From: an uncultured Acidobacteriota bacterium
GTDB taxonomy: Bacteria; Acidobacteriota; UBA6911; CAINFC01
Direction: 5' to 3'
DNA length: 64,000 bases
NCBI GenBank assembly: GCA_903847975.1
Contig: CAINFC010000252.1
Coordinates: 1-64,000 of the forward strand
The stretch's first letter is position 1, and each line of letters opens with the position of its first letter. The position numbers and the translations under genes are program-made. The notes under the pieces are model-generated. The model did no database searches and had not been told where the DNA came from. It worked only from the letters and a program-made list of their open reading frames with translations. Of the stretch, positions 754 to 8,643 are shown in pieces.

Positions 754-3351
754 TCAGGCCTTCCCGCCTGAGAATGGCTGGTACTTGATCTCCCTGATTT
801 CTATCTTTCCCTGCGCCACATCCAGAAAAGGCCTTCCCTGGCGCACCCCCACCGTACCGTAACCGCCGGCAGCGGAAAGAAAGCATCGGAAATCGCCGGC
901 CACCGAAGGCTGCAGATACAGAATTTTTTCCACGGCATCGTAGCGCGCTCCCGTCCACCCCTGGAATAAACCGTAGCTGGACATGGCACGCGCGTACCAG
1001 TGGCCGCACTCGTATTCGTTGAATGGATTGCGGACCCGGCCGTCATAGCGGTCCCGGCAGAAGCGCACGATTTCTCTTCCCTCCTCCACCCGCCCCATCG
1101 CCAGAAGATGGGCGGCCACCTGGTACTCGATTCCGGTCCAGACCTCATTGGAGTAGACGAACGGCAGCGACAGGGCGCCCCCCTTGGGCCAGGTGCAGAT
1201 CAGCAGCCCTCCTTCCGTGCCGCAGGCATAACTGGGCCGCTGCGGGTTGGCGTGGTCGCTGAGATCCTTGCGCAGGTTGTAGCGATGGACCGAACGCAGA
1301 TGGCTGGCAACCTTGTCCGGATCGAGGATGTGCCCCAACCCGCAGACCAGAGCCAGCCAGGATCCCAGCACTCCGTCGGCCAGGCAGCCGCTGCCGTACT
1401 GGTACTTGGGCCCCTCTTTATCCAGCAGGGCCAGGGCCTCGTGGCTGTAATCCCCGCCGAAATGCTGTACCTCCTGCGGATTTTTGGCCTTCAGGTTTTT
1501 CCATTCGATTTTCTGAATAAAATACTCGCCGTCGAACAGCTCCGTTTCCATCCTGCGGCGGCCTTTATCCAGCAGCTCCCGGAAGGCAGCAACATTTTCT
1601 CCGAGCGCCTGCCCCATGCGCACCGCGGCCTGCAGGGCCCCGAGATAAAAGCTGGTGCACATGCCGTCCGGCCCCCAGAATTCGATGTCGTAGGTGTTGT
1701 GGTGGGGCTCCTCCAGCCACCCCTTGCCGTCCGGGTCCCAGAGGCGAATGCAGTAATCGAGGCTGGCTTTGACCTGCGGCCAGAGGCGCCGCAGCCACTC
1801 CAGGTCGCCGTGAATCCGCCACTCGCGGTGCACTTTCATGATACCGCCCAGCTGCCCGTCCGCCGCAGCATGAAAATCATGGAGGAGCGGGCGGATGGGG
1901 AGAGCGCTGCGGAATTGCTGGTGTCCGCGCTCGTCCTGGGAGGGACCGAACTCCGTTTCCCGCAGGGTCCGCTCCAGGGCGGGAAACAGGTGGGGAATGG
2001 CCTGGGCGTAATTCCAGACGTGGGTGCAGGAACCGGCACAGCAGCCGGCGCTGTCGCTGCAGCCTTCCCAGGACCAGAGCCGCCCGTCCGCCTGGCGCAT
2101 CACGGTCGGCGATTTCAGAATGGTGAGATTGGCCGCGGCGGCCTCCAGAATCTCGGGCGGCAGAGTGGAATCATAAAAACAATCGCTGAACTGCCGGGAC
2201 GACCGGCGGAGCTCTTCGTAGCGACTGGTCCAGTAGCGGTCCACTTCCCCCAGACCGCCGAAACGGCCGGCGTACCAGGGAATATAACTGTCCTTGAGAG
2301 GCTCTTTCCCCGGCGCCGCGGCCGGATCTTTCCCGAACCGCAGGCTGGTTTTGCCGACGAACCAGGCCAGCCGCAGCACAATGGTGCGGCTCGCTCCGGC
2401 TTCCAGGCGAAACGGGAGAAAGAGCGACGCTCCGGGCGAAGGATTCCCTTCGGTCACCGGAGGCCGGTCATAGCAGGCCCCCTCCTCAATGTCTTTCCAG
2501 GCCATGGTCAGGGAGTCCCACCACCCGCCCCGGAACCAGGCATGATTTACCTTCACTTCGTTGCTGTCCGCAACGGCTGCGGCAAAGGCCCCTTCCTCCC
2601 ACGGCTTTTCGGAACTGCCGCCGCCCCACAGGAGGAATCCTCCGGGAAAAGACTTCACCGCCTGCTCATTCTTTCCCTGAACCATGAAGTTCTTGGCATG
2701 AAAAGAGAAGACGGCATCCACCGCTTCTTTGCCGGGGTTCCGGAAGCGATACTCGAGCGCCGCCACCGGCAGGCTGGAATTGTCCGCATCGCCCGGAACA
2801 AAAGGGCTCCACCCGGTTATTTCCGTTTCCAGGGGAACCGTTTTATCACGCAGCTTCACGGTGGCGAAGGGAAAGCGAACCGAAAAGACGGCCTGCCGGA
2901 AGCGGGGCAAACCGAAAGAGCTCCCCGCGGCGCCGTTGCCGGCACCCGGCTGCCCGAAGCGTTTCCACCCTGGAACCGGGCCCTCCAGGACCCGGGCTGC
3001 ATTCTTTCTGCCCTTGACATGCAGGGCCGCAAAGGTGCAAGGCTCGTTGAAAATGTCCGGCTTGTTGCGCAGCGAGAAGTGGGAAAGCGCTCCGGTACCT
3101 TCCAGGCAGATCATACCGGCGCCCATCCCTCCCATAGGAAATGCGACGCGGTTGAGCCGCTCTCCGGAGTAAGTGCCGGAGTATTTGCTGCCGGCAGCGG
3201 CGGCGGCCGGAGCCGCCTCACGCTTTTCCCCGGCTTCCTGGGCGGCAGCGGAAGCGCCGGCCATTCCGATCGTACCGGCCGTTACCGCGGATAGTTTTAA
3301 AAATTCCCGACGTGCGGTCGGCTGTTTGTCATTCCCGGCTTTCCTGGACAT
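754..3351 (-). CDS. Tat-exported GH116-type glycoside hydrolase (glucosylceramidase-like)
   Basis: The 865-residue protein resembles the GBA2/GH116 family: an N-terminal beta domain (about 55-370, opening with the VAFPMGGMGAGM signature) and an (alpha/alpha)6 catalytic domain (about 400-840). The family are retaining beta-glucosidases, xylosidases or glucosylceramidases. By analogy with human GBA2, E429 in a WEG motif is the likely nucleophile and D555 in HNTYD the likely acid/base; this is inferred, not aligned. Residues 14-19 (RREFLK) and the following hydrophobic Ala/Gly stretch form a twin-arginine leader, so folded export is expected. The ATG at 3351 has an AGGAGGT Shine-Dalgarno sequence at about 8 nt. 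A terminator separates it from the upstream oxidoreductase gene. The substrate is unknown. Confidence 0.85.
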   Translation of the reverse strand: MSRKAGNDKQPTARREFLKLSAVTAGTIGMAGASAAAQEAGEKREAAPAAAAAGSKYSGTYSGERLNRVAFPMGGMGAGMICLEGTGALSHFSLRNKPDIFNEPCTFAALHVKGRKNAARVLEGPVPGWKRFGQPGAGNGAAGSSFGLPRFRQAVFSVRFPFATVKLRDKTVPLETEITGWSPFVPGDADNSSLPVAALEYRFRNPGKEAVDAVFSFHAKNFMVQGKNEQAVKSFPGGFLLWGGGSSEKPWEEGAFAAAVADSNEVKVNHAWFRGGWWDSLTMAWKDIEEGACYDRPPVTEGNPSPGASLFLPFRLEAGASRTIVLRLAWFVGKTSLRFGKDPAAAPGKEPLKDSYIPWYAGRFGGLGEVDRYWTSRYEELRRSSRQFSDCFYDSTLPPEILEAAAANLTILKSPTVMRQADGRLWSWEGCSDSAGCCAGSCTHVWNYAQAIPHLFPALERTLRETEFGPSQDERGHQQFRSALPIRPLLHDFHAAADGQLGGIMKVHREWRIHGDLEWLRRLWPQVKASLDYCIRLWDPDGKGWLEEPHHNTYDIEFWGPDGMCTSFYLGALQAAVRMGQALGENVAAFRELLDKGRRRMETELFDGEYFIQKIEWKNLKAKNPQEVQHFGGDYSHEALALLDKEGPKYQYGSGCLADGVLGSWLALVCGLGHILDPDKVASHLRSVHRYNLRKDLSDHANPQRPSYACGTEGGLLICTWPKGGALSLPFVYSNEVWTGIEYQVAAHLLAMGRVEEGREIVRFCRDRYDGRVRNPFNEYECGHWYARAMSSYGLFQGWTGARYDAVEKILYLQPSVAGDFRCFLSAAGGYGTVGVRQGRPFLDVAQGKIEIREIKYQPFSGGKA

Positions 3352-6443: not shown

Positions 6444-8510
6444 TTACGGGGACGCGCAGGAAAAAGTCCCGTCCCGCTCAATCACGTCCTTCATCTTACA
6501 AAGAGAGTGGTTCCAGAGCACATCGTGCACATAGCTGGGAAAAGAAATCCGAAACAGGGTCCAGTACAGCCGGCTCAGCGGACCGCTTCCCCGAGGCATA
6601 TTGAAGGCGACATAAATCGAGAGCAGGAAAATCCTCGGACGCTTTTCCTGCACATCGAAGATTAAAACTCCGCCCCGGGCGAAGCCGTCCTGAACCCGGT
6701 ACAGGATCGACTCCTCGGGGTTATAGCGCTCCAGAACCAGGGAAAAGGTGGAAAACTGAAACGGGGTATGGTAGCGGATCTCGGTCCCGACTTCATTTTG
6801 CCTGCCTCGCAGGCGCAGCACCCGGATCATCCGGGGCTGGAAGTATTCCATGTCTTTTTCCCCGAACCGCCCCAGCTGGTAAAAGATTTTTTCGCGCGTG
6901 GACTTGATCTGAATGGAATACATTCTCTCAAAATCCAGGCGGCCCTGCAGCTCCTTCAGGGCAAAGCGGCGGATGAACTCCTGTCGCTTGGCGGCCAGAA
7001 CCTCACGGTAAACCCCGGTTTGAAAGCGGCCGAAATCCACCCACTTCAAGCCGAAAAGGGTTTCGGTCAGCCAGTTCCGCAGCGTGACCAGGCCCCCGCC
7101 CACCAGGATGGAAAGGAGGTTGGCGGGCCGCAGGATGGAAATGAAAATGCTGCGGTAGGTGGCGTCTCCGGCTGCAATTCTCCAGAGCTGATCGTCCAGC
7201 CGGCAGCGGGTTTTCCCCTTGCTTTTTCTCTCCGTGAGCACCGCCTGGTAAAGGATCCGGCTGAGAATCGGGTGCTGGAAAGCGATCCGGCTGAAAAGGA
7301 ACACCAGGCGGCCATACCGGTTGTCGATCTGAATTTCCCTCACCGCCGGCCAGTACCATTTTTTCAGGCTGCGGACATCCGCCCCTTTTTCCAGGAGGCA
7401 CTCGGCCAGCGCCCTGGCGGTCCGGTAGGCCGAAAGAATGCCGTCTTTGTATAGCCGGGCCACCGCCAGGTCGCCGATGATCGCCACCCGGTGGCCATAC
7501 GGCTGCCGGGCCGTGCCCACGGTCATGTTGGGGCTGCAGATACAGGCGGAATGGAAGTGGGTTCCCCGGGGAAAAATCCGCTTGATATGGGGAAGATCGA
7601 GCAGCTTGTCGACCAGGGCAAGGTAGTCGCCCGGCCCGGCGCGGTCGATACAGGGACCCAGCAGGGCGACGGTTATGAATTCCTCCTTGGGGATGAACGA
7701 GGACATCTCGATCTGCACCTCGTCCGAGCCGTACTCCACGAAGTAAATCTCGCCCTGCAGGTCCGACAGAAGCGCATGATCGGGCTTCAGCTCCAGGATC
7801 AGTGCCTTGCGGACTTTGGGCGGCACAAATCCGGGAATCAGCTGCCGAATGGATCGGACGAGCGGGTTGTCCTGCACCCGCATGCCCATTTTGGTGTTCA
7901 CGCCGCCGGCAAAAACCACGAAGTCCGCTTCGATCGGCTCCGGGTGTGGATCGTTTTTCCCCTGCGATTCCCATTCCACGACGGGCCTCCTGGCGGCGGA
8001 ATAGCTCACGCGGGTCACCTCGCCGGTGAGAATCCGGGCCCCTTCGGCCGCTGCGGTTTCCAGCAGGTAGGAATCGAAATTTTCGTAGCGGTGGGCCCGC
8101 TCCACCGGCCGGGATCCGCGGTGGACGGAGTACATCCGCCGCCCGGCGGGAACCGGCAGCTCGATATTTTTCCAGTCGCCCTGGACGATGACAGTCTCCA
8201 CTTCCCCGGTGATCACTTCCGGCGGGGCGCCGATCCCGGAATCGCGCAGCACATCGGCCATTCGCGGGGAAATGCCCCCGGCGCAATAATTGCACCCTTC
8301 CCGACATCCGCTCGAGCAGCTGCTTTGATAAAAGAGCGGCTGCTTTTTCTGTTCGAAAAGCAGGAGCTCCAGCAGCTGGCCTTTGCGCCTGGCCTGCCGC
8401 AGGATCTCAATGGCAAAGAAGGATCCGGCCGGCCCGCCCCCCACGACCACTACTTTGGAAAGAGAGCCGGAGAAACCGGCTTTTTCGGTCGATGGCGTCG
8501 CGTGAGTCAT
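6444..8510 (-). CDS. FAD-dependent oxidoreductase with Cys cluster and unknown C-terminal domain
   Basis: The 688-residue protein (ATG at 8510, weak GGAG about 11 nt upstream; a TTG 60 nt further out would add a poor-looking extension) starts with a Rossmann FAD site, VVVGGGPAG (21-29). A second flavin motif, AIIGDLAV...KDGI, lies at about 343-358, as in geranylgeranyl-reductase-like flavoproteins. Right after the first beta-alpha-beta unit is a cysteine cluster, C65-x3-C69-x3-C73-x2-C76, which could bind a metal or iron-sulfur centre. From about 440 the protein continues into about 250 residues with a hydrophobic stretch (459-477) and a mixed alpha/beta tail that I do not recognise. It lies downstream of no clear partner and is divergent from the DegT gene. 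Substrate unknown; a lipid or isoprenoid reductase is one possibility. Confidence 0.7.
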   Translation of the reverse strand: MTHATPSTEKAGFSGSLSKVVVVGGGPAGSFFAIEILRQARRKGQLLELLLFEQKKQPLFYQSSCSSGCREGCNYCAGGISPRMADVLRDSGIGAPPEVITGEVETVIVQGDWKNIELPVPAGRRMYSVHRGSRPVERAHRYENFDSYLLETAAAEGARILTGEVTRVSYSAARRPVVEWESQGKNDPHPEPIEADFVVFAGGVNTKMGMRVQDNPLVRSIRQLIPGFVPPKVRKALILELKPDHALLSDLQGEIYFVEYGSDEVQIEMSSFIPKEEFITVALLGPCIDRAGPGDYLALVDKLLDLPHIKRIFPRGTHFHSACICSPNMTVGTARQPYGHRVAIIGDLAVARLYKDGILSAYRTARALAECLLEKGADVRSLKKWYWPAVREIQIDNRYGRLVFLFSRIAFQHPILSRILYQAVLTERKSKGKTRCRLDDQLWRIAAGDATYRSIFISILRPANLLSILVGGGLVTLRNWLTETLFGLKWVDFGRFQTGVYREVLAAKRQEFIRRFALKELQGRLDFERMYSIQIKSTREKIFYQLGRFGEKDMEYFQPRMIRVLRLRGRQNEVGTEIRYHTPFQFSTFSLVLERYNPEESILYRVQDGFARGGVLIFDVQEKRPRIFLLSIYVAFNMPRGSGPLSRLYWTLFRISFPSYVHDVLWNHSLCKMKDVIERDGTFSCASP

Positions 8511-8643
8511 GAAGCCCTGTTCTCCGTTCGTGTATTTCCTCAAGCTACTTCCTTTTGGGCCGGCTTGCAAGTATTATGAAGGGATATGAATTTGGAACCG
8601 GCTCTCAGCCAAAGCCGAATAACGAACAACAAGGAGAACGGCC

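Follow-up and report, generated by a model that had tools for sequence, protein, structure and literature searches.

What kind of oxidoreductase joins a flavin domain, a run of closely spaced cysteines and a C-terminal part without evident kin is the question raised by one gene of this window, the whole stretch of 64,000 nucleotides that was analysed from an uncultured Acidobacteriota bacterium. The gene is a single open frame on the minus strand (6444-8510) of 688 codons plus a stop, with an ATG start; a TTG lies upstream in frame and would give an alternative product of 708 residues. One copy of this flavoprotein gene is present in the source genome. The preliminary description of one 688-residue FAD oxidoreductase was borne out, residues 18-470 having the FAD fold of the geranylgeranyl reductase (GGR)/FixC type. 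Judged by sequence comparison, the product is a flavin enzyme akin to lipid-saturating reductases, a so far uncharacterised variant of the GGR-fold flavoproteins. A literature search of titles and abstracts found no description of this flavoprotein family. The enzyme belongs to a subfamily defined by sequence that spans several phyla, includes an anammox bacterium and is unnamed by the family models searched, and its three invariant cysteines and set of partner modules make the electron path directly testable. The features of the gene are collected in Table 1.

Table 1. Features of the flavoprotein gene, with window positions and the evidence for each.
Feature	Positions	Strand	Residues, content and basis
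Whole gene	6444..8510	(-)	688-aa FAD oxidoreductase: A module, helical linker and SRPBCC-like domain
A module, GGR/FixC-like FAD domain with hydrophobic C-terminal helices	7080..8459	(-)	Residues 18-477; structural matches and TIGR02032
Reported C-x3-C-x3-C-x2-C	8283..8318	(-)	Residues 65-76
Conserved CxxC (C73, C76), last part of the reported cluster	8283-8294	(-)	Domain counts
Invariant pair C323-x-C325	7536..7544	(-)	57/57 A-type domains, 10/10 long forms
R131-G132-x-x-P135 motif	8106..8120	(-)	Conserved in A type
Hydrophobic stretch, candidate membrane-contact helix	7080..7142	(-)	Residues 457-477; hydropathy; mostly helix in the model
C-terminal domain, read as divergent SRPBCC/START-like (Polyketide_cyc2)	6447..6968	(-)	Residues 515-688; hhalign, Pfam, conservation

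In the N-terminal part, matches to FAD families were weak. Pfam DAO was the sole FAD family above its cut-off in this part. The NCBIfam match with the lowest E-value was QhpG (NF049967; E 2.3e-9, 36.7 bits against a cut-off of 240), and the geranylgeranyl reductase family TIGR02032 gave E 3.4e-9 and 36.8 bits against a curated cut-off of 158.8. GGR models reached their cut-off neither in the window protein nor in any of the nine relatives scanned, and no solved structure matched the window protein confidently by sequence. A structure model built with five distant rows in the alignment had a pLDDT that exceeded 70 over most of residues 18-480, was 60-70 around C323, fell below 50 at residues 56-73 (just before and at C73) and was unreliable beyond residue 487. 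Foldseek against the PDB placed kynurenine monooxygenase (KMO) at the head of its list; VIA-align over the top 1000 PDB chains from Foldseek ranked TaGGR (3oz2) first (Z 27.7, rmsd 3.6, 367 residues aligned), followed by FixC of EtfABCX (7koe_C) and QhpG (7ctq_A) at Z 26.7 each, with many monooxygenases and halogenases within a few Z units of TaGGR. The best 50 entries had Z of 24.4 to 27.7 within residues 13-482, which identifies the FAD fold of the GGR/FixC/PHBH type; since the top matches are nearly tied, the fold alone cannot pick a function. The hydrophobic stretch previously noted at 459-477 was found again, with its best 19-residue Kyte-Doolittle window at 457-475; the mean of 1.59 is borderline for crossing a membrane, and we make no claim of a transmembrane helix at 457-477.

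The protein has eleven cysteines (residues 65, 69, 73, 76, 287, 323, 325, 371, 436, 671 and 685), and the check proposed in the preliminary description, conservation of the four adjacent ones in homologues, separated those that matter from those that do not. C65, C69, C73 and C76 do stand as C-x3-C-x3-C-x2-C. Nine other homologues share the build of A module, linker and SRPBCC-like domain, and across these ten long forms, four of which are additional to the wider set described below, C73, C323, C325 and C671 were cysteine in 10/10, C76 in 8/10 (glycine in the other two), C69 in 3/10 and C65 in 1/10. An initial alignment, with 26 A-type domains, showed the same pattern (26/26 for C73, C323 and C325, 25/26 for C76, 2/26 for C69, 1/26 for C65), and in it nine paralogous B-type domains kept C76 and lacked C73, C323 and C325 altogether. 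A wider set was counted after removal of 20 rows identical to others, with four A-type fragments (two of L026, and L111 and L116) placed in neither group. Among its 57 A-type domains, C323 and C325 were present in 57/57, C73 in 56/56 and C76 in 49/56 with serine in seven, the latter two positions being counted over 56 as L134 is without its N-terminal part; the 26 B-type domains had cysteine at C76 in 23, at C73 in one, at C323 in one and in the C325 column in eight. Pooling A-type domains and long forms gave 60/60 for C73, 61/61 for each of C323 and C325, and 51/60 for C76 (serine in seven, glycine in two). These counts are not independent because the sets hold close relatives, including nine pairs above 90% identity among the 57 A-type domains, yet they span several phyla.

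Because C65 and C69 are missing from most homologues, the four-cysteine cluster is rejected as a unit, and with it the metal or iron-sulfur site that had been proposed on C65, C69, C73 and C76. The reported cluster is half coincidence, and the conserved signature of the alignments, C73 with C323-x-C325, is the more interesting fact. Since C73 and C323 each occur in only one of the 26 B-type domains, this signature is not shared by the fold at large. Serine or glycine at C76 in 9/60 excludes a strict four-cysteine site as a rule; C73, C323 and C325 are always kept and C76 is sometimes lost, so that a three-cysteine site fits better than a strict four-cysteine cluster. What stands of the original proposal is a conserved set of cysteines, C73 (with C76) and C323/C325, probably located beside the flavin. 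A further mark of the A type is the motif RGxxP (R131-G132-x-x-P135), found in 11/11 rows of alignment A5 and in 10/10 long forms; among nine B-type rows P135 was absent in all and RG was present in one. By its A-type signature the protein is assigned to a GGR-fold subfamily that lies below every named-family cut-off searched.

The C-terminal part had been described as unrecognised, and conventional searches gave the same impression: residues 417-688 matched no Pfam family at E<=10, and a profile of residues 515-688 matched no PDB chain at E<=10. Pfam detected PF10604 (Polyketide_cyc2) in one of five members at E 0.0095, below the gathering score, and not in the window copy. A direct hhalign comparison of the five-member C-terminal profile with a Polyketide_cyc2 profile of 23 sequences from related genomes gave Prob 90.9, E 1.1e-6 and a score of 42.8, compared with a maximum of 22.9 for 50 column shuffles and 12.4 for the reversed profile. 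Adding a sixth member raised the match to Prob 92.7, E 4.3e-7 and score 45.1 over 138 columns, nearly the whole of the domain, whereas none of 16 other profiles, which included two cNMP-binding sets and two flavin-domain parts, scored above 19.4; the E-values are those of single-family comparisons rather than of a library search. Homology to the SRPBCC/Polyketide_cyc2 family is thus seen at the profile-profile level, and we read residues 515-688 as a divergent SRPBCC/START-like domain. A single-sequence model of the C-terminus alone had a pLDDT of 31.8.

Domains of the SRPBCC/START-like type hold hydrophobic ligands. In contrast to PF10604, this domain has invariant residues of its own: H662, D663, N667, H668 and C671 (HD..WNH..C, residues 662-671, near the domain end) are conserved in 10/10 long forms, which suggests more than passive binding. 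The domain was found in 5/396 genomes of the phylum of the source genome (source included), in 5/142 genomes of the class of one holder (the holder itself among the first five) and in 1/9 genomes of the order to which G1014 belongs, this holder coming from the phylum of Candidatus Jettenia ecosi. Every match to it lay in an open frame of at least 680 codons, so no free-standing copy was seen. The C-terminus is therefore real as a lineage-specific domain, and its family can be recognised at the profile level only.

The reading closest to the named neighbours of the fold is an ordinary GGR or MenJ-like prenyl reductase whose reaction would be the saturation of polyprenyl or menaquinone side chains, with the extra cysteines merely tuning the flavin. 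The likeness to archaeal GGR (TaGGR 3OZ2, SaGGR 3ATQ) lies in the fold, TaGGR being the highest structural match, though nearly tied with others, and in a cysteine of the loop that follows the first beta-alpha-beta unit. C76 aligns with the cysteine of the CAGHLS motif in the GGR-like protein P0002, and in the alignment of P0002 with TaGGR and SaGGR the conserved cysteine of these two enzymes falls at the same position; by this two-step alignment C76 is the counterpart of Cys47 of SaGGR. According to passages of PMC6309074 and PMC10821996, this residue belongs to the active site, lies at the isoalloxazine ring and is essential in SaGGR. One member of the cluster, C76, is therefore the usual GGR cysteine; the new features are C73 and the C-x-C pair. 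A C-terminal domain of the hydrophobic-ligand type is also consistent with a prenyl reductase. We nevertheless regard this explanation as unlikely, since YxWxFP, given in a passage of PMC6309074 as the substrate motif of archaeal GGR, is absent from 57/57 A-type domains, the window protein included. The motif was likewise found in 0/29 rows counted as B-type, a number that includes three A-type fragments. Further evidence against a prenyl reductase comes from the sub-threshold GGR models and from C76, which is replaced in some members whereas C73, C323 and C325 never are; in comparison with archaeal GGR, the window protein adds C73, C323-x-C325, RGxxP and the SRPBCC-like domain. One match, in Bathyarchaeota, proved to be a GGR-like protein.

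The distribution of relatives and their partner modules bears on a second alternative. Matches at E<=0.001 were found in 25/396 sampled genomes of the source phylum (source included; one, G080, is marginal), and most of them cover residues 18-465 only. Among the matches listed, holders of such short forms include a Bacteroidales MAG, Draconibacterium sediminis (L054), two Chloroflexi MAGs and Candidatus Jettenia ecosi, and the relative L057 comes from an anammox bacterium. At E<=1e-40 and with the starting genome included, matches occurred in 10/201 genomes of the phylum of one Chloroflexi MAG, in 15/246 of the Jettenia phylum and in 1/247 of the Draconibacterium phylum, the last being the starting genome only. 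At L057 and L117-L126 (Jettenia phylum), a single protein of about 900 residues often combines an A- and a B-type flavin domain, and extra solo A copies with serine at C76 occur in some genomes of this phylum. At L053 (11280-12109) about 270 residues follow the A module in a protein that has no Pfam match at E<=0.01 over its whole length.

Many loci are short, so the counts of fusions and neighbours are lower bounds. With this limit, a B-type domain is fused to at least 14 of the 57 A-type domains and encoded in the same locus for at least 9/57, and a cNMP-binding domain is fused in at least 2/57 (L044, L099) and encoded in the same locus for at least 13/57. In four of 57 a C-terminal pyridine-nucleotide oxidoreductase is fused to the A module; in the three fusions scanned Pyr_redox_2 scored far above its cut-off and NDH2_C below it (E 7e-5 to 7e-4), and the top NCBIfam match of the L049 fusion, TIGR03169, was also below cut-off, for which reason the partner is labelled no further than NDH-2-like. 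In a FastTree tree (a single method, with the deepest node without support) that included six long forms, these six formed one clade with support 1.0, whose sister group (0.979) comprised the four NDH-2-like fusions, three solo copies and one A-type domain with an adjacent B-type domain. B fusions and cNMP forms made up two further groups with solo copies also inside. On this tree, the partner modules largely follow the clades, the partner being a B-type flavin domain, an NDH-2-like, a cNMP-binding or an SRPBCC-like module.

The NDH-2-like fusions in the sister group suggest a possible link to quinone electron transfer, and an electron-transfer flavoprotein like FixC or ETF-QO, which gives electrons to quinone and holds an iron-sulfur cluster on its cysteines, would agree with the rank of FixC of EtfABCX (7KOE) among the top structural matches. 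The solo A gene at L056, with an NDH-2-like gene adjacent and a NapC-type cytochrome also nearby, points the same way. FixC partners with the ferredoxin FixX, whereas Pfam found no ferredoxin domain in the window protein; C76 is not always cysteine and the NDH2_C matches are below cut-off, so that we assign a low probability to this explanation as well. A flavin-dependent hydroxylase or peptide-modifying enzyme (QhpG/KMO/halogenase-like) is very improbable: the peptidyl tryptophan dihydroxylase QhpG (7CTQ) has the lowest NCBIfam E-value and a structural near tie, and KMO heads the Foldseek list, but the QhpG score is far under its cut-off, a scan of nine window neighbours found no quinohemoprotein gene, such monooxygenases are not known for invariant cysteines next to the flavin, and relatives occur in an anammox bacterium, a group that lives without oxygen.

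We favour, at a little under an even chance, a membrane-associated FAD oxidoreductase that represents a new GGR-fold subfamily and acts through a cysteine redox centre on a lipid-soluble substrate. C73, C323 and C325, mostly with C76, would lie next to the isoalloxazine ring as a redox centre, either a disulfide relay or an iron-sulfur site with an open position, that may relay electrons between the flavin on one side and the substrate or a partner on the other. The hydrophobic helices would dock the protein on the membrane, where the SRPBCC-like domain could hold an isoprenoid, a quinone or an acyl lipid for reduction or oxidation by the flavin. Partners would differ by clade, with an NDH-2-like module feeding the flavin core, a cNMP domain sensing and the SRPBCC-like domain holding the substrate. 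A membrane lipid or quinone substrate, as suggested earlier, is plausible given the SRPBCC-type domain, the hydrophobic helix and the sister clade with NDH-2-like fusions. A bolder form of the proposal, which we consider improbable, places a three-cysteine [4Fe-4S] cluster or a dithiol relay on C73, C323 and C325 directly at the FAD in a multi-phylum unnamed class of enzymes. The open iron site or thiol would then serve one-electron reduction of membrane lipids, and clades would differ in what the core is plugged into: an NDH-2-like module, a cNMP sensor, another flavin domain or, in the window protein, a lipid pocket of SRPBCC type that has an invariant HD..WNH..C site of its own.

Co-occurrence with lipid or quinone genes, the other check proposed at the outset, gave no such operon among the nine neighbours scanned, which detracts from the lipid or quinone substrate. 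These neighbours are GH116, Gfo/Idh, a 261-residue protein without a Pfam match, an ECF sigma factor, DegT, a helicase, a DnaJ protein, a CAAX protease and an aminotransferase. The ECF sigma factor and the 261-residue gene follow the flavoprotein gene on the same strand, and the DegT-type aminotransferase is its divergent neighbour. The GH116-family glycosidase identified by Pfam at 754-3351 (minus strand) has a twin-arginine signal apparent by eye.

Elsewhere, neighbours are shared among the long forms only between close relatives (L033/L171 and L172/L174). At L034, the only locus where this was noted, a radical SAM gene (6796-8592; Pfam E 6e-4, below cut-off) precedes the long-form gene on the same strand and stops 12 bases short of it. 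The Chloroflexi locus L056 (6369-12598) combines the short-form flavoprotein, the NDH-2-like gene and the NapC-type cytochrome with a gene for a radical SAM protein that has an HMPTM zinc ribbon and is similar to tetraether lipid synthases. In the closely related genomes of L172 and L174, whose long forms have glycine at C76, the gene directly after the long form on the same strand (L172:6260-7830, minus; L174:4911-6461, plus) contains an in-frame TGA in the context ...GGCT-TGA-PPW... (a CT-TGA-PP motif). With the TGA read as selenocysteine, the product gives sub-threshold matches to T4_deiodinase (E 3.3e-5) and to AhpC-TSA (E 7e-5) and is a candidate thioredoxin-fold selenoprotein; this deiodinase/AhpC-TSA-like neighbour may be a hint of thiol or selenol chemistry.
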